Both the position numbers and the translations under genes were made by a program. The notes below the pieces were generated by a model. That model did not search any database, was not told the DNA's origin, and saw only the letters and a list, made by a program, of their open reading frames with translations. A stretch of DNA of 34,146 nt from an uncultured Clostridia bacterium (GTDB taxonomy: Bacteria > Bacillota > Clostridia > Peptostreptococcales > Anaerovoracaceae): assembly GCA_945644815.1 (NCBI GenBank), contig CALZFA010000004.1, forward strand, positions 1 through 34,146, read 5' to 3'. Of this stretch, positions 6 through 21,630 are shown piece after piece (positions within the stretch are counted from its first letter, which is position 1; each line of letters opens with the position of its first letter).

Positions 6-755
6 TTAACCGAATCTTCCGGTGATATAGTCTTCCGTCCTCTTATCCTCAGGGAAGGAGAACAGCTTTTCTGTATCTGCATACTCGATAACCTCTCCCA
101 GAAGGAAAAAAGCGGTCTTGTCGGAAATCCTGGCAGCCTGCTGCATATTGTGGGTTACCATAACTATAGTATACTTGTTTTTAAGCTCCGCCGCAAGGTC
201 TTCGATCTTAGATGTGGAAATGGGGTCCAGGGCAGAAGTCGGTTCATCCATCAGAAGCACCTCCGGCTCCACGGCCAGAGCCCGAGCTATGCAAAGCCTC
301 TGCTGCTGTCCTCCCGAAAGTCCCATGGCACTGTCCTTAAGCCGGTCTTTGACCTCATCCCAGATGGCCGCCCCTCGAAGAGAATTCTCCACAATTTCAT
401 CAAGTCGCACCCTGCTGCGCACTCCATGGGTTCTGGGTCCGTACGCGATGTTGTCATAAATACTCATTGGAAATGGATTGGGTTTCTGGAACACCATTCC
501 TACCCGCTTTCTCAGATTATTTATGTCAACATCTCCGTAAATATTCTGTCCGTCAAGCCTGATGTCGCCGGTAATTCTGCATCCCTCCACCAGATCATTC
601 ATTCTGTTAAGTGACTTGAGGAGCGTGGATTTGCCGCAGCCGGAAGGACCGATAAAGGCAGTAATTCTGTTTTCGGGAATGTCCAGATTTATACCTTTAA
701 GTGCCTGAAAATCCCCGTAAAACAGATTCATATCATGTATTGTCATCTTATCCAT
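6..755 (-). CDS. pstB: Phosphate ABC transporter ATP-binding protein PstB
   Basis: Cytoplasmic ATPase of the high-affinity phosphate importer; it powers uptake through the PstC/PstA channel. The ABC motifs are complete: Walker [11 protein letters not shown]-loop in VFQKPNPFP, signature LSGGQQQR, Walker [13 protein letters not shown] and an H-loop histidine in VTHNM. The length of about 249 aa is normal for PstB. An ATG at 770 is in frame, but it has no Shine-Dalgarno sequence; its own codons supply GGAG about 9 nt before the ATG at 755, so I prefer 755. It is the fourth gene of a minus-strand pstSCAB run. A phoU gene would be expected beyond the window edge, but that is not visible. Confidence 0.96.
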
Positions 756-806
756 TTTTCTTTTCTCCATATGACCAAAATCCAGTAATAAACTCTATAT
801 GTCATA

Positions 807-1679
807 TTATTTGTTTGTAAGGCGCTTTGCCACTGCTGCCGAAAGAGCATTTATCAATATTACCACAACCAGCAGCACCACTGCCACGGCATAGGCCTGA
901 TCTGTGTACCTGCCCTCATTGAGCAAAGTATAAAGGTGCACGGAAAGGGTGCTCGCCGATGAAAACAGGCTCTTTGCCGCCACCGGGTTGGTTCCAGAAG
1001 TAAATATCAGCGCCGCCGATTCTCCCACAATCCTTCCTATTGCCAGAATTACTCCGGAGAGTATTCCCGGCACAGCAGACGGAAGAACGATTTTAAAAAC
1101 TGTCCGAAGTTTTCCCGCTCCCAGTCCGAAGCTTCCCTCCCGGAAAGAATCCGGAACGGCCATAAGGGCTTCCTCTGTGGTTCTCATTATTAACGGGAGT
1201 ATCATTATAGCCATGGTTATTACCCCGGAAAGGAGGGTGAAACTCCAGCCCAGAGTTATTACGAAGACTATATATCCGAAGAGTCCGTATACAATGGACG
1301 GAATTCCCGAAAGGGTTTCCGCCGTAATTCTGATGACCTTAACCAGCTTGTTTCCTCTCTTTGAATATTCCACCAAATATATAGCGGCAAAAGCTCCTAT
1401 GGGCACCGCCAAAAGCAGAGTCAGGACTATCATAATCAGCGTATTGATAATAGCCGGCATCATGGACTGGTTTTCTGCGTTGAAGTCCCATGCGAAAAGA
1501 CCCGGCAAAGTCAGATTTGGCACTCCGTGATAGAGTATATATCCTATGAGAAAAAGCACCACCCCCGCGGTTATCAGCGCGCTGAGGCACACCGCCGCAT
1601 AAATAATCAGCGACAGAGGCTGATGCCTGTAGTTTTTTATTTTTTGTCTCAAAGTCTGTCTGTTAATGTATTCCATCAT
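807..1679 (-). CDS. pstA: Phosphate ABC transporter permease PstA
   Basis: Membrane permease subunit that pairs with PstC to form the phosphate channel. The 290-aa protein starts with a cytoplasmic Arg/Lys-rich segment, then a first membrane helix (about residues 24-48) and the BPD_transp_1 core with the family pattern EEALMAVPDSFREGSFGLGAGK (EAA loop contacting PstB). About six hydrophobic segments are readable, as expected. The start overlaps the pstC stop as ATGA, with a GGGGG ribosome binding site, which suggests translational coupling. The order PstS-PstC-PstA-PstB makes PstA, rather than a second PstC, the right call. Confidence 0.95.
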   Translation of the reverse strand: MMEYINRQTLRQKIKNYRHQPLSLIIYAAVCLSALITAGVVLFLIGYILYHGVPNLTLPGLFAWDFNAENQSMMPAIINTLIMIVLTLLLAVPIGAFAAIYLVEYSKRGNKLVKVIRITAETLSGIPSIVYGLFGYIVFVITLGWSFTLLSGVITMAIMILPLIMRTTEEALMAVPDSFREGSFGLGAGKLRTVFKIVLPSAVPGILSGVILAIGRIVGESAALIFTSGTNPVAAKSLFSSASTLSVHLYTLLNEGRYTDQAYAVAVVLLVVVILINALSAAVAKRLTNK

Positions 1680-2524
1680 TTATTCCCCCTTTTCAGAAGA
1701 GAGAAAGAAATATTTATTATGAGTATAAATACGAAAAGCACCACTGCAGTGGCTATGAGTGCCTCCCTGTGAAGCCCCTCTGCATATCCCATCTCAATGA
1801 TTACATTGGCGGTCATGGTTCTCACTCCGGAAAGAATTGAGTCCGGCAGAATGGGCTGGTTTCCTGCCACCATTGAAACAGCCATGGTTTCTCCTATGGC
1901 TCTTCCTATGCCCAAGACCACTCCCGCCATTATGCCTGATTTTGCTGCGGGAAGGGTGGCAAAGAAAACACTTCGCTCGTGAGTTGCACCCAAAGCCAGT
2001 GAACCCTCATAATAACTTTCAGGTACAGCTCTGATGGCCGCCTCGGAAACGCTGACAATGGTGGGGAGAATCATTATTGCAAGCATTATGGATGCCGAGA
2101 GAATTCCCTTTCCGCTGGTTCCGGTGAGTGTCTGTACCACCGGCACAATAACCATCAAGGCGAAGAATCCGTAAACGATTGACGGTATTCCTGCCAGCAG
2201 ATCTACTGCCGGCTTCATTATTCTGTAAATACCGGATGGACAAAACTTTGCCATAAATACGGCGCAGAGAAGCCCAACCGGCACACCTATAATAATTGCT
2301 CCTGCTGTAACATAAATGCTGCCTACAATCATAGGGAAAATTCCGAATTGTCCTTCAAGAGGCTTCCATACCGTACCTGTCAGAAAATCGAGTACCCCTA
2401 TTTCCCCTATGGCAGGAAAACCCTGCTCAAAGAGAAAGAAGCATATTACTATGACTGCAAAAATTGATACTGTAGCCGACAACGTAAACACTAATTTCAT
2501 TGTTTTTTCAGAAAAAATGTTCAT
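1676..2524 (-). CDS. pstC: Phosphate ABC transporter permease PstC
   Basis: Membrane permease subunit of the phosphate importer. The 282-aa protein has an N-terminal helix (about residues 10-32) followed by the permease core. An EAA-type loop, EAAIRAVPESYYEGSLALGATHE, marks the ATPase contact, and GRAIGETMAVSMVAG is typical of PstC. It lies 48 nt downstream of pstS. The ribosome binding site is weak (GGCGGGT before an A-run), so production may lag behind PstS, as is common where the binding protein is needed in excess. The intergenic gap repeats GGTAAAAAAA twice. Confidence 0.95.
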   Translation of the reverse strand: MNIFSEKTMKLVFTLSATVSIFAVIVICFFLFEQGFPAIGEIGVLDFLTGTVWKPLEGQFGIFPMIVGSIYVTAGAIIIGVPVGLLCAVFMAKFCPSGIYRIMKPAVDLLAGIPSIVYGFFALMVIVPVVQTLTGTSGKGILSASIMLAIMILPTIVSVSEAAIRAVPESYYEGSLALGATHERSVFFATLPAAKSGIMAGVVLGIGRAIGETMAVSMVAGNQPILPDSILSGVRTMTANVIIEMGYAEGLHREALIATAVVLFVFILIINISFSLLKRGNK

Positions 2525-2572
2525 TTTTTTACCCGCCGTTTTTTTACCTGCTGATTCTTTATCCGCAATGCT

Positions 2573-3451
2573 TTACCACTCAGTCACTTCACCTGTAAAT
2601 ATCTGTCTGATCTGCTCTGAAGTCAGGTCTTCTGTCGTATTTTCCTTGTTTACTATAACCGCGATACCATCCATGGCAATGGTTTCTCCTTTCACACCCT
2701 TTGCCAGTTCTTCATCCTTCAGTTCTCTTGATGACATCCCCAGATTGACAGCCCCTTCAATAGTTGAGGTGATTCCTGCACCGGAACCTGTCTGCTGAAT
2801 TTCAATTTCAACCTCCGGATTAATAGCTTTATATGCATCAGCCAGCTTCTGCATTACAGGTGCTACCGATGTTGAACCGCCCACTGAAATTTTCCCTTTA
2901 AGGCCGCTTCTGGTTTCATATGCCTTAGCTTCGTTCTTTACAGAGATGCACCCGTCTTCTTCAATAATAGTCTGACCTTCCTTACTCATAATAAAGGCGA
3001 TAAAGTCTTTTGTAAGTTCATCTGTCTTCTTTCCCGTAACTACCAGGAAAGGTCTCGACACCGGATATACTCCTGCCTTAATGTTTTCTACTGTTGGTTC
3101 AACACCATCAACCTTTATTGCCTTTACTGAATCGTCCATGGACGCCAGAGAAATGTAACCGATGGCGTTTTTGTTCCCTGATACTGTTGCCATCACTACA
3201 GATGTGCTTTGTGAAATTTCTGCCTTTGGAGTAGTATTATCCACATCACCCGCCATGATTCCCATTAGTTCTGTAAATGCCCCTCTGGTGCCGGAACCAT
3301 CCTCTCTTGATACAACTGTTATGGGGTTGCCGCTCTGATCCTGTCCATTGGTCTTATTGCCTCCACAGGCTGTCATGGCAAATACCATGGTAAGAGCCAG
3401 TGCTGATGCCGCAATCTTCTTTATTCCGTTCATAATCTTATTCTTTTTCAT
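2573..3451 (-). CDS. pstS: Phosphate-binding lipoprotein PstS
   Basis: Extracellular phosphate-binding component of the Pst importer, anchored as a lipoprotein. The N-terminus is Lys-rich and hydrophobic and ends in a lipobox (FAMTAC, then GGNK). Binding-site motifs are present: SREDGSGTRGAF, VGGSTSVAPVM and QQTGSGAGI, which carry the Ser/Thr/Arg ligands for the phosphate ion. The protein is 292 aa. The start has a strong GGAGG 6 nt upstream. It is first in the operon, behind a candidate Pho box (3536-3575), so PhoPR control in low phosphate is likely. A 6-bp hairpin lies just before the ribosome binding site (3471-3492). Confidence 0.95.
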   Translation of the reverse strand: MKKNKIMNGIKKIAASALALTMVFAMTACGGNKTNGQDQSGNPITVVSREDGSGTRGAFTELMGIMAGDVDNTTPKAEISQSTSVVMATVSGNKNAIGYISLASMDDSVKAIKVDGVEPTVENIKAGVYPVSRPFLVVTGKKTDELTKDFIAFIMSKEGQTIIEEDGCISVKNEAKAYETRSGLKGKISVGGSTSVAPVMQKLADAYKAINPEVEIEIQQTGSGAGITSTIEGAVNLGMSSRELKDEELAKGVKGETIAMDGIAVIVNKENTTEDLTSEQIRQIFTGEVTEW

Positions 3452-3901: not shown

Positions 3902-6607
3902 TTATTCTGTCAAAGCTTTCTCAAATGGCCTGTTTTTTTTCAGTTTGACTTTGCAATCCGACAATCTTGCTCGTATTTCCTCGGATACACCGGTAACTTC
4001 CGCATGGAATTCTCTTGCCGACATGCGGCGTGCGCCGTCTCCCAAGGCTGCCATCTGTACCGGTCTGTCCGATGTAACTACTGCCACATCGTATTTGCGC
4101 CCCATCTCATAAACAGTCTTTTCTATAAACCTGTCGGCTGTCTCCGCTTCCTTGGTATAGACTACCTTTATTTCTCCATAGTCCATCCTGGTGCCCGGAT
4201 TTCCGACCACCTTATATCCATCAAAAACCACCACCATGTCGGCTTTAGTATAGCCCTGGTAGTTTCCCAGAATATCCAGAAAAGCCTCTCTGGCCGAATC
4301 AAGGTTTACCGCAGCAAGCTCCTTAAGCTCATCCCAGGCAAAGATTACATTGTATCCGTCTATTACCAGGAAAGGCTGTCCATTGCCCGTCTCATGCTTC
4401 CATTTAGGCTGCGGAAAAGTATCAGATCTGCCTGCAGCTTTGGAGTGGGTAGCTTTGCTCAAAGCTTCTTTTCGCAGAGCTTCATCACGCTTGCTTTTGC
4501 CGTAGGTCCTTTCAAATATAGCCAGAAGTTCTTTTTCCCCTGCCGCAGAAAGCTTTTCTCTGTCTGTGTTGCTTCCGTCTTTGATGCCGTCTTGCAGCAG
4601 AGCTCCGCCATAAGTGCCTGTCCTGTCGCTCCGCCTGATGAAGTGCCCGTTCTCAATAATGTATCCGCTGTCCACATGAGCCATTTCATCAACCTGCTTC
4701 CAGTCCACATATTCTGCTGCGCCGCGGCTGCAGAACACAGAACCTGTAGGGTTTTCAAGATCTGCCTCAGGTACATAGGCGCTGTTCGCCACAACTTCAT
4801 CCGCATTATGGCAAGGCCTGAATCCGCACAAAGCAGCTTCAAACCTGCCCTCACCTTTTGTATATGCGCTTACTTCTCTCTGGTAGCCCTTAAGAGTGGC
4901 AACAGGTCCCTCTCCTTCAATAACGTTGTTCATCATTCCATCTATTTCCGGAAGGCCACAGGAAGCCCCCAATCTCTGCATGTCGGACATGGCTCTCCCC
5001 ACACAGTCCTGAGGCACCTTAAGAGAAAAGCTGTAGAAAGGTTCCAGCAGCACGCTTTTCGCCTTTCTGAGCCCCTGACGCACAGCCCTGTACGTGGCCT
5101 GCCTGAAATCTCCGCCTTCCGTGTGCTTGAGATGAGCCCTGCCTGCCAGTATGCTGATCTTCATATCGGTTATCTCCGAGCCGGTGAGCACGCCTGGAAA
5201 AGGTCTCTCCCCAAGGTGAGCAAGTATAAGACGCTGCCAGTTTCTGTCAAGGCTTTCTTCGCTGCACAGGCTGCCGATTACAAGTCCGCTTCCCGGAGGC
5301 AAAGGCTCCAGCAGCAGCTGGACCTCAGCATAGTGACGCAGGGGCTCGTAGTGACCTATACCGATTACGGGCTCTGCTATAGTCTCCTTATATATTATGC
5401 TGCTTTCGCCAAAGGAAACATCTTCGCCGAATCTGTCCTTTATGCGAGTTTTCAGAATTTCCTCCTCCAGCTCACCCATTATCTGAACATGGATTTCTTT
5501 AACTTCTTCTTTCCATAATACGCGCATAGTAGGGTCTTCTTCTTCAAGCTGCCGGAGTTTAGAAAGAAAAACCACAGGATCAGTGTCAGGTGACATGATT
5601 ATCCTCGACGTTATCGCGGGAAGAAGCAAGGGTTTTATGTCTTCACTTTGAGCTTCCTCTCCCAGGCCCTGTCCGGCATATGTCCCTGTCAGCCCTGTAA
5701 CTGCGCAGACGGTTCCCGCCTCTGCTTCACCGGTCATTGTAAAGCTGTCACCGGAATAAAGTCGTATCTGCTCTGCTTTTTCCTCTCTTCCGCCGCAGTT
5801 CAAAAGCATTTTGCTCCTGAGCCTTCCCCCCGTGATCCTCATGTGACTAAGCCTGTTTCCCTGCTTGTCCCTGCTGATCTTATATACTCTTGCTCCGAAC
5901 TCTTCGCTGTATTGTTTAGCCCGAGTATATCTGTCAAAACACCGGAGAAACTCTTTTACACCCTCCAGTTTAAGAGCGGAGCCGAAGATGACAGGAAACA
6001 GCTGTCTGCCCTCAACAGCATCGGTAATGGTTTTGTCACTGATACTTCCGCCATTGAGATATTCCTCCATAAGTTCCTCGCTTGCCATGGCTGTCTCATC
6101 CTCGTTTAGACTGCCGTCGGTCTTTGCTGTGGCAAAGCTGTCCCCAAAAGTATCTGTCAGTTCCTTCATCAGGTTTTCCCGGTCAGTCCCGGGCCTATCC
6201 ATTTTGTTTACAAATACAAAAACCGGCAGTCCTCGATCTTCCAGCAGCTTCCACAAAGTTCTGGTGTGGGCCTGAACACCGTCGGTGCCGCTTACCACCA
6301 ATACTGCATAATCCAGAACCTGCAATGTCCTCTCCATTTCAGCGCTGAAATCAGCGTGGCCCGGCGTATCCAGCAAAGTGACCTGCTTTTCTCCCAGCAC
6401 AAAACGAGCCTCCTTGGAAAATACGGTTATACCGCGGGCTCGTTCTACTTGTACGTTATCAAGAAAGGCATCTTTGTGATCAACCCTGCCCAGCTGCCTT
6501 ATGGCTCCTGTCAGGTACAGTATTGCCTCCGATAAGGTTGTCTTTCCTGCATCCACATGGGCTAATATGCCCATAGTCAGGGGGTTAGGTCTGTTGTCCT
6601 TCTTCAT
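3902..6607 (-). CDS. TetM/EF-G-like ribosomal GTPase fused to C-terminal Rae1/YacP-like NYN ribonuclease domain
   Basis: A 901-aa fusion. Residues 1 to about 640 form a translation-factor GTPase of the ribosomal protection (TetM/TetO) branch: G1 GILAHVDAGKTT (13-24), switch RARGIT (56-61), G3 DTPGH (80-84), G4 NKMD (134-137), then EF-G-like domains II-V. After a charged linker (about 640-744) comes an NYN/PIN-like domain (745 to about 870) with acidic motifs at D750 (VIDGYN), D796 (VFDGYK) and D847 (VTSDRP), as in YacP/Rae1. Rae1 of B. subtilis cleaves mRNA in the ribosomal A site; TetM-like factors also enter there. The fusion therefore suggests ribosome-targeted mRNA cleavage, which is inference. 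Tetracycline resistance is not implied. The start at 6607 has no ribosome binding site but sits about 7 nt after a TATAAT box. An in-frame ATG at 6679 is possible but gives an atypical leader. Confidence 0.88.
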   Translation of the reverse strand: MKKDNRPNPLTMGILAHVDAGKTTLSEAILYLTGAIRQLGRVDHKDAFLDNVQVERARGITVFSKEARFVLGEKQVTLLDTPGHADFSAEMERTLQVLDYAVLVVSGTDGVQAHTRTLWKLLEDRGLPVFVFVNKMDRPGTDRENLMKELTDTFGDSFATAKTDGSLNEDETAMASEELMEEYLNGGSISDKTITDAVEGRQLFPVIFGSALKLEGVKEFLRCFDRYTRAKQYSEEFGARVYKISRDKQGNRLSHMRITGGRLRSKMLLNCGGREEKAEQIRLYSGDSFTMTGEAEAGTVCAVTGLTGTYAGQGLGEEAQSEDIKPLLLPAITSRIIMSPDTDPVVFLSKLRQLEEEDPTMRVLWKEEVKEIHVQIMGELEEEILKTRIKDRFGEDVSFGESSIIYKETIAEPVIGIGHYEPLRHYAEVQLLLEPLPPGSGLVIGSLCSEESLDRNWQRLILAHLGERPFPGVLTGSEITDMKISILAGRAHLKHTEGGDFRQATYRAVRQGLRKAKSVLLEPFYSFSLKVPQDCVGRAMSDMQRLGASCGLPEIDGMMNNVIEGEGPVATLKGYQREVSAYTKGEGRFEAALCGFRPCHNADEVVANSAYVPEADLENPTGSVFCSRGAAEYVDWKQVDEMAHVDSGYIIENGHFIRRSDRTGTYGGALLQDGIKDGSNTDREKLSAAGEKELLAIFERTYGKSKRDEALRKEALSKATHSKAAGRSDTFPQPKWKHETGNGQPFLVIDGYNVIFAWDELKELAAVNLDSAREAFLDILGNYQGYTKADMVVVFDGYKVVGNPGTRMDYGEIKVVYTKEAETADRFIEKTVYEMGRKYDVAVVTSDRPVQMAALGDGARRMSAREFHAEVTGVSEEIRARLSDCKVKLKKNRPFEKALTE

Positions 6608-6643
6608 AATTTGTATTATATATAAAAAAACATAAAAAGTCGA
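6608..6643 (-). promoter_or_regulatory. Promoter giving a probably leaderless mRNA
   Basis: On the minus strand, TCGACT (6643-6638, 4 of 6 matches to TTGACA), a 17-bp spacer, then a perfect TATAAT (6620-6615). The ATG at 6607 begins 8 nt after the end of the -10 box, so a normal start site would fall on or next to the A of ATG. No Shine-Dalgarno sequence precedes this ATG. The rest of the gap up to 6741 holds no clear terminator for the upstream ABC operon. Confidence 0.55.
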
Positions 6644-6741
6644 CCCGATTTTTATCTTATTGCCCATGTTGGTGTGCAATTCAGGCTTTGTTTTGGTGTC
6701 TTATCCGCAGAAGTAAACCTATATTTTCTATTTGCAATGGT

Positions 6742-14648: not shown

Positions 14649-14711
14649 CTTTGTAACGAAATGCCCCCGGCAGACACTAATATACAGAAACGCTTGGAAG
14701 GAGGAAAAAAC

Positions 14712-15206
14712 ATGGTGTCAATGGAACAACTTTATAAGAAACATTCCATGATGATTTATGCTTTTCTTCTGTCCAGGACCGAAGACCCCGGCCTTGCTGA
14801 AGAGCTTACTCAGGAAACCTTTTATCAGGCTGTGAAAAGCCTGAACAGCTTCAAAGGTCAGAGCAGCGCTTCTACATGGCTTTGCGGCATAGCAAACAAT
14901 GTCTGGCTTACGCACCTGAGGAAACAGAAAAAGGAGAAGGACCTCATGGCTGCGGATACAAATTCAGATGAAGTGAAATATTCCTCCGCCGAGGATGTTT
15001 TTCTTAAAAAATCAGACAGTATTGCGCTTCTTAAGGCCCTGCACCAGGTTAAAGAGCCTATGCGCGAGGTTCTCTATCTGAGGCTTATGGGATGCCTCTC
15101 CTTCAGAGAAATCGGTCAGATAATGGGTCAATCGGAAAACTGGGCCCGGGTAACATTTTACCGGGGCAAAACCAAGCTGATAGAGGGGGTTAAAATAGAT
15201 GAATAA
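14712..15206 (+). CDS. ECF-type RNA polymerase sigma factor
   Basis: A 164-aa extracytoplasmic function sigma factor. Region 2 is visible from EQLYKKHSMMIYAFLLSRTEDPGLAEELTQETFYQAVKSL to STWLCGIANNVWLTHLRKQK, and region 4 from ALHQVKEPMREVLYLRLMGCLSFREIGQIMGQSENWARVTFYRGKTKL (helix-turn-helix). It would direct RNA polymerase to a small regulon when released by its anti-sigma. The start at 14712 has GGAAGGAGG 6 nt upstream. The stop overlaps the next start by 8 nt. Its downstream partners are two zinc-finger anti-sigma paralogs. Confidence 0.93.
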   Translation: MVSMEQLYKKHSMMIYAFLLSRTEDPGLAEELTQETFYQAVKSLNSFKGQSSASTWLCGIANNVWLTHLRKQKKEKDLMAADTNSDEVKYSSAEDVFLKKSDSIALLKALHQVKEPMREVLYLRLMGCLSFREIGQIMGQSENWARVTFYRGKTKLIEGVKIDE

Positions 15207-16203
15207 TAAAATACCTTGCGATGTAATACTGGACCTGCTTCCTCTTTGTGCTGAGGGGCTTTCTTCAGATAAAAGCAGTGATGCTGTTCAGCAGCATATA
15301 AAAAGCTGTCCGTCCTGTCAAAGGGCCGCTGAGAATATCACGAAGAGTCCGGCAGATGGATCTGCTCCCTGTGACGAACGGGATAATGAGAGAAGCGTGG
15401 ATTACCTGAAAAAGATCCGCAGCCGCAGCCGCAAAAAAATAATAACGGCAGTCTGCATTACCTTTTGTCTGGCGCTTTTAACGGCAGGATTCAAGCTTTT
15501 TGTCTACGGCTCTCCTGACTACGACTACACTGTAAAAATTTCATCTGAAGTCCCTGCGGGTTCTGATGCGGACTATACCATCAAGGGAAACTTTATCGGT
15601 TCAGCAGCTGTATTCGGCCACTATAAAGTCAGGGCTACGGCTGACGGCGGCGAAGAGCTCATAGTCTACAGCTGTCTCTCCTCGCCCCTGAACCGGACGG
15701 GAAGCTTTTCAATAGACTGCTCTGTAAATGCAAAGTATCTGGATATAAACGGTACGCGCATTATGGCCGACGGGACCATATATGACGCAGGACTGGCCAA
15801 AAGGCTGTTCGACGCAGCACACCCGTATATAGGAGATATGCCTGCCAACAACGAACTTGCTTTTGTTTTGGATATTGCCGGTCTGGCAGGGCAGTATTAC
15901 AATAGACTTCACACAGAAGCTGAGCCCTACGGGTGGGAATTTGTTTTTAGCGAAACACAAAACTTGAACAAGCAGGATGAAATAAACGAGTATATGAAAA
16001 AAAATGCGGTAATTCTGCTGGCGCTGGTAGGAAACTGTGATGAAATCATGTGGTCTTTTGCCGCCGATGTTGACGATGCGCCTGATGAGCCTGCATATAA
16101 GGTAACCTCCGCAGAAGCAAGCTCTCTTCTGGGGACGGATGTCAAATCTTTCGGAGAAAGTCCGGAGCAGATAATGATGCTGCTCAAAGTCCTTAACCTT
16201 TAA
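15199..16203 (+). CDS. Zinc-finger anti-sigma factor with DUF4825-like extracellular domain (paralog 1)
   Basis: Membrane-bound anti-sigma factor, 334 aa. The N-terminus carries IPCDVILDLLPL and a zf-HC2 zinc finger His33-x3-Cys37-x2-Cys40, which binds the sigma factor. A single helix follows (about residues 81-98). The long extracellular part has YDYTVKISSEV and YIGDMPANNELAFVLDIAG-type blocks; the latter, with EPYGWEFVF, resembles DUF4825. It overlaps the sigma gene by 8 nt (ATGAATAA), so the two are translated together. The extracellular part probably senses or transmits an envelope signal; the signal is unknown. A paralog follows immediately. Confidence 0.85.
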   Translation: MNNKIPCDVILDLLPLCAEGLSSDKSSDAVQQHIKSCPSCQRAAENITKSPADGSAPCDERDNERSVDYLKKIRSRSRKKIITAVCITFCLALLTAGFKLFVYGSPDYDYTVKISSEVPAGSDADYTIKGNFIGSAAVFGHYKVRATADGGEELIVYSCLSSPLNRTGSFSIDCSVNAKYLDINGTRIMADGTIYDAGLAKRLFDAAHPYIGDMPANNELAFVLDIAGLAGQYYNRLHTEAEPYGWEFVFSETQNLNKQDEINEYMKKNAVILLALVGNCDEIMWSFAADVDDAPDEPAYKVTSAEASSLLGTDVKSFGESPEQIMMLLKVLNL

Positions 16204-16228
16204 ACTTCCAATGAGAGGAGGATGCGTA

Positions 16229-17167
16229 ATGAAAAACAGAATACCATGTGAAATAATCCGTGACCTGCTTCCCCTCTATACGGATAAGCAGACAAGGCCG
16301 GATACCTCACAAGTAATTGCCGGACATTTATCCCACTGCACCGAATGTGCTCGCATATACGAAGAAATGAATGCTCCCCTTACTCCCGCCGGTGCAGACG
16401 CCCCCACTGATGCCCTTGGAAAAATCCGCCGAAAAAACCGTCTGGAGGCTCTTGCCGGGGCGTGCATCACATTTTTCATCATTTTAATTATCACATTATT
16501 TAAGCTTTTCATATATGGCTCACCGGAAGCTTTCTACTCATCAATGGTTGAAGTAAACAGCGATATGTGCACAATTACAGTCAGCGGAACAGTTTCCGAT
16601 GAAAATAAGGCCTACAGCCACTACAAAATCGAGAAGCAAGGAGACGGATGCCGCCTGATTGTATACAGCTGTCTGCCTTCCTTTATACACGGCGAAGAGA
16701 CCTTTTCCATAGATCTTACCTACCAGGATATTCCTCTTAAAATCGGTGACCGTACAGTTATGCCTGACGGAAGTATAGTATATTCAATGGCAAATGCCCT
16801 GTACGACAATGCCGGATTTACGGATATTGCAGATAAAATAGGTTTGAGGAAAGCTTTGGGAAGCTTCGAGCTGCGACTGCTAAGTACAAGTGGTCCCTAC
16901 CAATGGGAAATTATTTTTAAAGAGACCTGCAGCTACAATGAAGCAGAATCAAAATCAGCCCTTATGGTAAAATATGCCTGTGCTATGCTGGCGCTCAGCG
17001 GCACATCAAAAGAAATAAAATGGAGCTTTGCCTCAGATGACGGCAGTACCATTTCCTCGTCTTTAGAAAGAAATCAAGCAAACAGCATGCTTAAAAACCC
17101 TATAGAGGGATATGCATCGACTCCCCAAGCAGTTCAGCAGCTCCTTGATGAGCTTGGAATTCTTTAA
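16229..17167 (+). CDS. Zinc-finger anti-sigma factor paralog 2
   Basis: A 312-aa paralog of the preceding protein, with the same architecture: IPCEIIRDLLPLY, zinc finger His33-x3-Cys37-x2-Cys40, one helix (about residues 75-97), then FKLFIYGSPEAFYSS and a comparable extracellular domain with YSHYKIEKQGDGCRLIVYSCLPS. Zinc ligands are kept at the same positions, so it is not obviously dead. The ATG at 16229 has GAGGAGG 7 nt upstream; an ATG at 16211 sits within that ribosome binding site and is rejected. Tandem duplication is the simplest explanation. Whether it binds the same sigma factor is unknown. Confidence 0.8.
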   Translation: MKNRIPCEIIRDLLPLYTDKQTRPDTSQVIAGHLSHCTECARIYEEMNAPLTPAGADAPTDALGKIRRKNRLEALAGACITFFIILIITLFKLFIYGSPEAFYSSMVEVNSDMCTITVSGTVSDENKAYSHYKIEKQGDGCRLIVYSCLPSFIHGEETFSIDLTYQDIPLKIGDRTVMPDGSIVYSMANALYDNAGFTDIADKIGLRKALGSFELRLLSTSGPYQWEIIFKETCSYNEAESKSALMVKYACAMLALSGTSKEIKWSFASDDGSTISSSLERNQANSMLKNPIEGYASTPQAVQQLLDELGIL

Positions 17168-17902: not shown

Positions 17903-19945
17903 TCATAGTATCCCCTGAAGCACCTGAATAGCAGCCAGCACCAGTCCAGCTATGGTCAACAGATTTATCAGCCTGTTGGTGCTGGTCTGATATAGCAGGT
18001 CCAGTTCTGATTCCAGAAGCTCCAGCAGATATTTTATCTTCTCTATTATAGGTTCAATCTGCTGGCTTGTCAGAAGAACTCTTTCCATTTCACCTATTTC
18101 GGCAATCTCCAGATTTTCCACTTTATTTAAAGTTGTGATAAGCTCTCCTCTGTAAGTCTTGATTTTACGAATTTCTGCTCTCAGCTTGCTGCTCTGACCT
18201 CCCGTGTAGTAATCAGCCTGCCTTCTCAGTATTCTGTTACATATGGTCTTGATAACCATAACAAGTTCTGCAGAAAACAGCACTCCGTGGTTTACACCGG
18301 CCACATTGCTGTTCATTTCAAAATATGGGTTCATATCGCCGTAATAATTGTGATCGTAATCCATGCGGTCCGCCCTGTAGTTAACCGCATCACTGCTGTC
18401 AAACAGGTTAAAGAATACCGTGTTTGCGCCAAAGGAGATCAGTCTGATGAAGTCTCTGCTCCCCCATAGGTTACATAGCCGCTCGTCAGCTAATTCCTCA
18501 GGCACATGGCGCCATCCCTCATCTCCTGTCATGAGTCCGTATATCAGCTTTTTCTCTTTTCTTAAAACCTCATCAACGCTCTCATACTTTCCCAGCCTTT
18601 TAATCTCTACAAGATATGTTTCGGTCACATCCGTAATTTTCCGCCCCAGACAGCTGCTGACTTCATTAAAAATTTCTCTCACCGAAAGCTGTCGTCCGTC
18701 GGCGTTTTGCAGTACTGCTCCATTTCCCTGTACCTGACGGCAATACACAAAATCATCTGCATTGCCGTTCTTTACAGTAAGACATATGCACACCTGTACG
18801 GTGTCTGATTCAGGAAACACTGTCATAAAAACCGCGGAATCACGTATATCAAAATCCTTGCTTCTCTTTCCTGCCGAAGAAACAGTCTCCAGACGGAACT
18901 TAAAATCGTAGTTGTTTATGAGGATACGGAAGCAGTTAAACGGCAGTCCTCCGCCGTGAAGGAAGTTTTCTCCCACCTTCAGGTCCCTGAAAAGCGGCTC
19001 ATCATCTGCCTTTGGCTCATCCATAAAAACCGCATCGGGGTACGCTTTTTTTATGGAATCCCGCAACTCCTTCTCATCGTCAGTACGCAGTCCTGTCTCC
19101 TCGTCAAAAATGCTGAAGCTGAAATGATAGCATATATTCCCGTCAATCAGCATGCTGCTTTTCCTTCTGAAAATATACATTGCGTCTCTGGCACCCTCAT
19201 ATTCCCCGGCCAGGTTGGCTTTTTCATCTTCTGCAATGCTGTGATGATTCTGATAATGATACCTTGACATGCGGAGAAGTTCCATTCCTTCCGCTTCAGC
19301 CATAGACACTATGCTGTCCTCCGCAAACATACGCACAGGAAGCACGCTATCTGCACCAAAAAGCCCGTCGAAGCGTTCCCTGTCTATTTTCTCGCTTTTG
19401 CGGCTCTCACCTTCCCAGCTTTCGCAGAAAAACCGGTCTTCCTCGCCCTCAGTGTATGTGGTCGTCATCACCAGGATTCCCTCAGGCTCCAGCAGATCAG
19501 CTATTTTTTTCATCATATCTGCAGCCATATTGCATGTGATATGCTGAAGCACATGGCTGGAAATCACTGCGCTGTATTTTTTATCTTGCGGCAGTGAGGA
19601 GGCATCTCCGTTAATTACAGTAATCGGTATATTTACTGACTGTGACACTCTGTGTCCTTCATTTTCAGCCGCAGAAAACCGATTCGCATCAGGCTCCGCA
19701 GCTGTTATTTCATCCGCTACCATCGACTCTTCGCTGAAAAGCCTCCCCATGCCGCAGCCCAGGTCCAGCACACTGAAAGGAATGCCCTTTCCTGATGAAT
19801 TTCTCTTTTCCTTAAATGCTCGCAGTTCTTCACGCGCCTGCTCCAGCACACGTGCTTCACTCTCTGCCCAGTATTCTCCGTCAAATTCCTTTTCTATGAG
19901 TTGACAGGTCAGCCTGTCGTCCTTGTCCGGGTATGTATATGACAT
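17903..19945 (-). CDS. Membrane-anchored protein with N-terminal SAM methyltransferase domain
   Basis: A 680-aa protein of unusual layout. Residues about 55-240 form a class I SAM-dependent methyltransferase: motif I VLDLGCGMGR (59-68), acidic AAEPDANRFS in place of motif II, VISSHVLQHI, and LEPEGILVMTTTY. The middle (about 270-560) matches nothing I recognise. Residues about 580-650 are Leu/Glu/Lys-rich coiled coil, and the last 20-25 form a hydrophobic helix (LLTIAGLVLAAIQVLQGIL). The end recalls CorA-like membrane anchors, but no GMN motif is present. Start at 19945, with AGGA 6 nt upstream; the ATG at 19984 is less supported. Target unknown. Confidence 0.75.
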   Translation of the reverse strand: MSYTYPDKDDRLTCQLIEKEFDGEYWAESEARVLEQAREELRAFKEKRNSSGKGIPFSVLDLGCGMGRLFSEESMVADEITAAEPDANRFSAAENEGHRVSQSVNIPITVINGDASSLPQDKKYSAVISSHVLQHITCNMAADMMKKIADLLEPEGILVMTTTYTEGEEDRFFCESWEGESRKSEKIDRERFDGLFGADSVLPVRMFAEDSIVSMAEAEGMELLRMSRYHYQNHHSIAEDEKANLAGEYEGARDAMYIFRRKSSMLIDGNICYHFSFSIFDEETGLRTDDEKELRDSIKKAYPDAVFMDEPKADDEPLFRDLKVGENFLHGGGLPFNCFRILINNYDFKFRLETVSSAGKRSKDFDIRDSAVFMTVFPESDTVQVCICLTVKNGNADDFVYCRQVQGNGAVLQNADGRQLSVREIFNEVSSCLGRKITDVTETYLVEIKRLGKYESVDEVLRKEKKLIYGLMTGDEGWRHVPEELADERLCNLWGSRDFIRLISFGANTVFFNLFDSSDAVNYRADRMDYDHNYYGDMNPYFEMNSNVAGVNHGVLFSAELVMVIKTICNRILRRQADYYTGGQSSKLRAEIRKIKTYRGELITTLNKVENLEIAEIGEMERVLLTSQQIEPIIEKIKYLLELLESELDLLYQTSTNRLINLLTIAGLVLAAIQVLQGIL

Positions 19946-19968
19946 CTCATTTCCTTTCATTTTAAACA

Positions 19969-19991
19969 AGACCCTGCATATCACAGGGTCT
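19969..19991 (-). terminator. Probable intrinsic terminator after glnS
   Basis: AGACCCTG (19991-19984) and CAGGGTCT (19976-19969) on the minus strand form a perfect 8-bp stem with a 7-nt loop, followed by TGTTT. The U-tract is short. It sits between glnS and the methyltransferase gene, so some readthrough is possible. Confidence 0.6.
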
Positions 19992-20001
19992 CACGAGTTT
20001 C

Positions 20002-21630
20002 CTATTTCCACGAGCTCTTAAGCCCTACGATTTCGTTAAATAAAAGATTGTCCTTGCTGAACAGCTTCGGCTCTGCTATGAAGTAGCCGTGTCTGAAGAA
20101 CTGAAATCTTTCTCCCGCCTTTGCTTCAGTTATCGACGGTTCAGCATAGCAGGTGATTTCCCTCATGGTCTCAGGGTTCATAGTCTTCTCGCCATTCTCA
20201 TTCTCCAGCATAAGGTAATCAAACTGGCGGATCTTCACCGGCACTGCCGTTGCTGCATCCACAAAGTGAATAGTGCCCTTTACCTTGCGGCCATCAAATC
20301 CTGAGCCCGACTTGGTTTCAGGGTCATAGGTGCAGTGAAGTTCTTTAATTGAGCCGTCCTCGTTCTTCACAACATCATTGCAGGTGATGAAATATGCACC
20401 CTTGAATCTTACCTCATTGCCCGGAAAGAGTCTGAAATACTTCTTTGCAGGCACCTCCATAAAGTCAGCTCCATCAACCCAAAGCTCTCTTGAGAAAGGT
20501 ATCTGACGCGTTCCCATCTCAGGAACCTGCGGGTTGTTTTCTACCTCACAGAGCTCGCTCTGTCCTTCAGGATAGTTGGTTATGATCACCTTAACCGGAT
20601 CGAATACCACGTTTCTGGTTTCAACCTTTTCCTTAAGGTCATCTCTTACGCAGTGCTCCAGCAGAGAAATGTCCACTGTACTGTTGGCCTTTGATACGCC
20701 GATTTTTTCACAGAAATCTCTCACTGCCTCAGGAGTGTACCCCCTGCGGCGGATGCCTGCAATGGTAGGCATTCTCGGGTCATCCCAGCCGTCAACCGCA
20801 CCATCGTCCACGAGCGCCTTCAGATATCTCTTAGACATTACCGTGTTGGTAAGGTTGAGTCTGGCGAATTCAATCTGCTGCGGAGGCTCAGGCCACCAGC
20901 CCACTTCTCTCAATACCCAGTCGTATAAAGGCCTGTGGTCCTCAAACTCCAGAGTGCAGATGGAATGTGTAATACCTTCAATGGCGTCTTCTATAGGATG
21001 AGCAAAATCATACATCGGATAAATGCACCACTTGTCACCGGTATTGTGATGAGACGCATGAGCTATACGATAGATAATAGGATCCCTCATATTGATGTTA
21101 GGCGATGCCATATCTATCTTGGCACGGAGAACCTTTTCTCCGTCGGCATACCTGCCCGCCTTCATTTCCCCAAAAAGTGTGAGATTTTCCTCAACGCTCC
21201 TGTTTCTGTAAGGGCTTTCCTTACCGGGTTCTTTAAGAGTACCTCTGTATTCTTTAATCTGCTCCGGTGTCAGATCGCACACATATGCCTTTCCTTTTTT
21301 AATGAGCTCGACAGCAGCCTCATACATTTTGTCAAAATAATCTGAGGCCCAGAGTCGCTTGTCCCATTGAAATCCCAGCCACTTTACATCTTCTTCGATG
21401 GAACTTACATATTCCACATCCTCCTTGACAGGATTGGTATCGTCATATCTCAAATTACACTTTCCGCCGTATTTTGCCGCTGTTGAAAAGTTGAGGCATA
21501 TGGACTTGGCATGTCCGATATGCAGGTATCCGTTGGGCTCCGGCGGGAAACGAGTGTAAACCTTATCTCCGTATTTCTGGTTTTCCAGATCTTTTTCGAT
21601 GATGCCGTGAATGAAATTGGTCTCTGCCAT
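20002..21630 (-). CDS. glnS: Glutaminyl-tRNA synthetase
   Basis: Charges tRNA-Gln with glutamine directly. The 542-aa protein has the class I HIGH-type motif [14 protein letters not shown] near the N-terminus and KMSKS-type VMSKRYL in the middle. The catalytic blocks ([39 protein letters not shown]) mark it as GlnRS and not GluRS. Many Firmicutes lack GlnRS and use the indirect GatCAB route, so the gene is notable. The strong GGAGG site is 8 nt before the ATG. No T-box leader fits into the 51-nt gap upstream. Probably cotranscribed with the membrane protein gene before it. Confidence 0.96.

Follow-up and report, generated by a model that had tools for sequence, protein, structure and literature searches.

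To our knowledge, the CorA-like membrane effectors so far known in immunity all occur beside Cas10, the maker of SAM-AMP. The N-terminal domain of the CorA protein of type III CRISPR is described as a unique fold. In type III-B CRISPR, the CorA effector is activated by SAM-AMP (Chi et al. 2023, PMC10600005). SAM-AMP is bound by CRISPR CorA, whose presumed action is to open or disrupt the membrane; the CorA gene stands next to the gene of a SAM-AMP-degrading enzyme or is fused with it (PMC12255297, PMC10600005, PMC11229360). How does the gene studied here compare? In the window (the whole stretch of 34,146 nucleotides that was analysed) and its relatives, a protein that is probably CorA-like nearly always has a SAM methyltransferase as its partner, and none of the loci seen was a CRISPR locus. 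In the window the two are encoded as one chain, with the following features.

17903 to 19945, minus strand: fusion gene of a SAM methyltransferase and a probably CorA-like membrane protein, 680 aa (reading frame and homologues)
19952 to 19957, minus strand: ribosome-binding site AAAGGA, 6 nt 5' of the ATG (read from the sequence)
19968 to 19992, minus strand: hairpin in the gap that separates glnS from the fusion gene, possible glnS terminator (10 bp, weak T tract)
19160 to 19945, minus strand: class I SAM methyltransferase domain, residues 1-262 (Pfam Methyltransf_25, E=2e-10)
18593 to 19147, minus strand: soluble alpha/beta domain, residues 267-451 (AlphaFold2, pLDDT mostly >85)
18266 to 18583, minus strand: central, most conserved region, residues 455-560 (conservation in 21 homologues)
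17963 to 18184, minus strand: helical stalk, probably CorA-like, residues 588-661 (AlphaFold2 helices; PADLOC CorA matches in relatives)
17906 to 17962, minus strand: single C-terminal transmembrane helix without GMN, residues 662-680 (Kyte-Doolittle mean 2.19)

The gene is real. Its 680-codon frame runs on the minus strand from an ATG at 19945 to a stop at 17905-17903, with a GTG at 19984 as an alternative start upstream. It is 79% identical to the orthologue in G003 with a dN/dS of 0.12, and 0.04 in the helical part, so the frame is under purifying selection. Upstream on the same strand lies glnS (20002-21630), separated by a gap of 56 bp. The first-pass annotation placed a glnS terminator in this gap. 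The hairpin is there (-17.8 kcal/mol with flank, z=-3.2), but its T tract is weak and a consensus terminator scan did not call it. The convergent ECF-sigma/anti-sigma operon on the other side is as that annotation described. It has one ECF sigma gene (14661-15206), followed by two tandem paralogous anti-sigma-like membrane proteins (15199-16203 and 16211-17167) which by eye are of zinc-finger type, so that the anti-sigma arrangement is duplicated.

Is the fusion gene a lone oddity? It had been taken for a solitary gene without a partner, and this view is ruled out, because in relatives its halves are adjacent genes; the missing partner is part of the same gene. The window gene joins the two genes of a module, one for a methyltransferase and one for a membrane protein of an unnamed family. 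The two parts are fused in the window and in G003, G311, G312, G313, G196, G051 and G322. In G001 (272 and 404 aa), G008, G302, G335, G671 and G1301 they are separate, co-oriented neighbours that overlap or lie within a few bases of each other. The pairs of G671 and G1301 are outside the host family, and the gene for the C-terminal part in G1301 has a frame break. In G869, which belongs to another class, the two genes are divergent. Fusions occur in two separated clades, that of the window and that of G051 and G322, which indicates that joining took place at least twice or was undone.

The pairing also shows in the counts. The profile of the C-terminal part (residues 263-680) matched 19 of 351 genomes of the host family, and that of the methyltransferase subfamily (E<=1e-15) matched 19 of 249. 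Both parts are common to 18 genomes (Fisher p=3e-25, a descriptive value, given the non-independence of related genomes). Two genomes depart from this: G005 has the C-terminal gene only, and in G310 the contig, of 4.1 kb, ends within the methyltransferase. Trees of both parts at 16 loci agree with r=0.895 (0 of 5000 permutations), to which shared species descent contributes. The genomes searched were Bacillota. Beyond them, the search covered collections of viral, phage and plasmid sequences, and a single pattern scan across genome contigs turned up one close relative. There were no relatives in viral contigs, phages or plasmids, so phage or plasmid cargo was rejected as an explanation. A match in G637 (E=6e-4) was discarded as an unrelated short ORF. 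The whole picture points to a module of two parts, so far undescribed, for signalling or defence, rather than a lone oddity; literature searches on methyltransferase-CorA pairs brought up nothing of relevance.

In G317, G318, G319 and G351 the methyltransferase is cut short or frameshifted, and in G005 it is lost, while the C-terminal part is still open, so a strict dependence between maker and effector is not absolute. Decay is also seen in the C-terminal part, which ends early in G319 and has a break in G194. In G005 an AAA-ATPase-like gene (L011 4038-5327, DUF4143-type by eye) stands in the place of the G001 methyltransferase gene and precedes the orphan C-terminal gene, and the flanking genes are the same as in G001. 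G1301 has a second C-terminal gene without a methyltransferase beside it (L068 7130-8836); the short ParA-like fragment adjoining this orphan copy suggests a mobile or plasmid-derived region.

Pfam methyltransferase models exceeded their cut-offs on residues 58-170, among them Methyltransf_25. The domain has the marks of the class I SAM methyltransferases, with a Rossmann-type motif I (LDLGCGxG) and an acidic residue after strand 2. The nearest solved structures are small-molecule enzymes, namely phosphoethanolamine N-methyltransferase 5wp5 (E=9e-14) and TehB 2xva, and the fold is shared with both groups at E values from 1e-10 to 9e-14. Unlike them, the window subfamily has its own conserved N-terminus, a C-terminal ARD motif and a CorA-like partner. 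The motifs Y-PD..D.LT..LI..YW..SE, LDLGCGxGRL, SHVxQHI and ARD are kept in 17 sequences. The methyltransferase of the window belongs to a specific subfamily of the small-molecule type. The PADLOC mad2 model also matches residues 58-170 (E=9e-12). The likeness to Mad2 of the MADS defence system is the generic methyltransferase fold alone, so identification as a known defence gene by this match was rejected; other MADS parts were not seen.

What is the C-terminal part? The roughly 400 residues after the methyltransferase belong to no Pfam, NCBIfam or PDB family. The first-pass annotation had read this region as an unrecognised stretch, a coiled coil and a terminal hydrophobic helix, which was right, and a full-length match to a characterised family was looked for and not found. 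Membrane anchoring stands as well. The C-terminal part is more than a tether, since it is a stand-alone protein in relatives, a gene of 404-492 aa in G001, G005, G008, G302, G335, G671 and G869. An AlphaFold2 model of this part built with 21 homologues has a pLDDT of 86.2 and a pTM of 0.82, and was used instead of an earlier run with 7 sequences (pLDDT 54), which was too poor. The soluble domain (model residues 2-186) is predicted to have the strand/helix order b-a-b-b-b-b-a-b. The central region carries the motifs Y-G-x-x-x-G-D-E-G-x3-V-P, W-G-S-R-D-F and A-G-x-N-H-G. Among the 21 homologues Y469, G470, D475, E476, V481, P482, R497, N513 and H553 are invariant or nearly so, and E447, Y469, G470, D475, E476, V481, P482, N513 and R599 are invariant wherever covered by sequence. 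Four helices follow this region in the model, the last of 50 residues and running into the membrane; the stalk helices are model residues 323-348, 351-362 and 365-414.

The protein had been thought to end like CorA without the GMN motif, and the analysis supports this. One hydrophobic segment follows the long helices, and none of the 21 members has GMN near the membrane helix. The window and the host-family members have one C-terminal membrane helix, while G869 has two. In a Foldseek search of the PDB with the C-terminal model, ranks 1-8 were all ZntB/CorA, each weak alone (E 0.045-0.21). The top 50 contained 15 CorA/ZntB/Mrs2 proteins, nine S-adenosylmethionine decarboxylases and six MoaC, and the TM-scores of the PDB matches were low (0.15-0.22), with none reaching E 0.001. 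Pfam CorA (PF01544) was the sole Pfam family with matches in two or more members (4 of 21, E 0.046-0.18); these matches are in register at the pre-membrane helix, and the best of 13.5 bits is below the curated cut-off of 27. PADLOC CorA models matched three relatives. PDLC01043 matched L067 with E=3.2e-5 (residues 296-365 on profile 345-414), L044 was matched with E=8e-4 and 1.2e-3, and L040 with E=0.012. The HMM consensus of the C-terminal family matched PDLC01043 with E=2.1e-5, residues 290-404 on profile 292-405 of 457, which means that the lengths before the stalk agree. The signal is confined to the stalk and membrane helices, where scores may be inflated by coiled-coil composition; the soluble parts searched alone gave no CorA match, and the C-terminal domain of the window itself matched no PADLOC or Pfam family.

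These signals are weak but agree with one another. They support placing the stalk and membrane helix in the CorA superfamily, with the CorA-like effectors found in type III CRISPR as the nearest relatives, and we regard this assignment as probable. Like CorA/ZntB/Mrs2, the C-terminal part is predicted to have an alpha/beta cytoplasmic domain and a stalk helix; unlike them, the family has no GMN, usually no second membrane helix, and no significant full-length match. With the CRISPR effector it appears to share a cytoplasmic N-terminal domain of similar length before the probably CorA-like stalk and membrane helix. Both also usually have as partner, in some cases within one chain, an enzyme whose substrate derives from SAM, which is NrN, a DEDD nuclease or a SAM-AMP lyase for CRISPR CorA and a methyltransferase here. 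The differences are this partner, the one membrane helix in the host family, and a likeness limited to the stalk and membrane helix. Genes for cas10, NrN, DEDD or lyase were not seen in the flanks of the loci read by eye. There is a further point about conserved residues. Immunity by the B. fragilis CorA depends on two conserved residue pairs, R152-R153 and D219-D220, where its domains meet (PMC10600005). In the window family R403 is kept in 17 of 20 sequences and lies 72 residues from the invariant D475-E476, against a spacing of 67 in B. fragilis; this similarity is a lead only.

The soluble domain may have another relative. Its predicted strand/helix order is that of S-adenosylmethionine decarboxylase (AdoMetDC, PF02675), which recurs among its Foldseek matches (probability up to 0.72, target TM 0.48 for 1tlu) and again at rank 8 in BFVD. 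A hairpin reads T-V-F-P-E in the window family where AdoMetDC has H-T-W-P-E. Pfam AdoMet_dc matched one relative (residues 38-116 on profile 15-92 of 107), with E=0.042, a value that chance can yield among so many tests. An hhalign comparison of the C-terminal family with 13 AdoMetDCs was not significant (P 0.12-0.26), with the expected register of TVFPE on HTWPE. The catalytic His and Cys and the cleavage (pyruvoyl) Ser of AdoMetDC are not conserved. Thus an AdoMetDC-like fold without the catalytic residues is possible, at slightly less than even odds, and the evidence is suggestive only. If the soluble domain does share the fold of a SAM-binding enzyme, this would bear on how CorA-like effectors recognise SAM derivatives.

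The architecture is firm, and from it we infer a mechanism. The best explanation, to which we give a probability of about 0.4, is a ligand-gated membrane effector whose ligand would be made or removed by the methyltransferase. The soluble domain, possibly of AdoMet-decarboxylase fold, would bind a SAM-related small molecule, which the methyltransferase may supply, modify or remove (SAM to SAH, or a methylated product). Ligand binding would rearrange the stalk, and assembly of the C-terminal helices might then permeabilise or depolarise the membrane when the cell is under stress, for which phage attack is a plausible cause. The two parts would be held at 1:1 by their fusion and strict pairing. 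By analogy, the mode of action would be like that of the SAM-AMP-gated CorA of type III CRISPR. A pore is easier to envisage for two-helix CorA than for the host-family proteins, which have a single membrane helix. In CorA the pore is lined by the first of these helices, so the loss of the second need not abolish it. A bolder form of this reading seems to us unlikely. It holds that the pair is a Cas10-independent, self-contained SAM-signalling module, sometimes a single polypeptide, in which the methyltransferase makes or destroys a SAM-derived messenger gating a CorA-type effector with a dead AdoMet-decarboxylase-like sensor, and that the SAM-AMP/CorA branch of type III CRISPR descends from it or is its sister. 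Whichever form holds, the pair, encoded by one or two genes, is a simple system that would allow direct tests of the ligand, its binding site and the membrane effect.

Several other explanations should be weighed against a ligand-gated effector. The most serious is a membrane-tethered metabolic enzyme, whose C-terminal part scaffolds and perhaps regulates a small-molecule or lipid methyltransferase, with no gating and no defence. The small-molecule substrates of the nearest solved methyltransferases, the single membrane helix of most members and the housekeeping genes adjoining the fusion gene all favour it. A sporadic gene (19 of 351 genomes) with changing neighbours is unlike a metabolic gene. 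What is more, the C-terminal part persists alone (G005 and the second copy in G1301) and its helical part is better conserved than the methyltransferase, which argues that it is more than an anchor; we consider the metabolic enzyme rather unlikely. The place of TehB among the closest solved relatives, and a membrane protein as the partner of the methyltransferase, recall the detoxification pair TehA/TehB, in which a metalloid or xenobiotic would be methylated and then exported or sensed by the membrane part. However, this part is CorA-like and not TehA-like, most members have one membrane helix, and resistance genes were not seen beside the fusion gene, which leaves such a pair improbable. Equally improbable is a toxin-antitoxin system with a membrane toxin neutralised through modification by the methyltransferase, which the tight two-gene arrangement, sporadic distribution and membrane-active candidate would suit, since both parts are fused in one chain, transcription is divergent in G869, and copies that keep only the C-terminal part are tolerated (G005, G1301, and G317-G319 and G351 with a broken methyltransferase).

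The genomic context varies by lineage. Named by eye, the neighbours are glnS in the window and G003, rplQ, pcrA and ligA in genus g29, ispG, a permease and mutY in genus g47, carAB in G008, a sugar kinase in G302 and a sensor kinase in G671. The sporadic distribution and unrelated gene contexts suit an accessory or defence module. The neighbourhood survey of homologues found the partner, which is the other half of the gene, while cas or familiar defence genes were not seen in the flanking translations read by eye. In G003 a co-oriented 225-aa gene (L009 13848-14525) lies between glnS and the fusion gene, 3 bp from the latter. The window lacks this gene, which means that the surroundings of glnS have been remodelled between close relatives. 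The fusion gene of genus g47 (L047 8250-10835, L045, L046) is flanked by an AI-2E-type permease and mutY in a tight operon, and the N-terminus of the methyltransferase is progressively lost there. Elsewhere in the window, a large EF-G-like GTPase (3902-6679), which by eye resembles the TetM-type ribosomal protection proteins, adjoins a pst phosphate transport operon (6-3451, also by eye).
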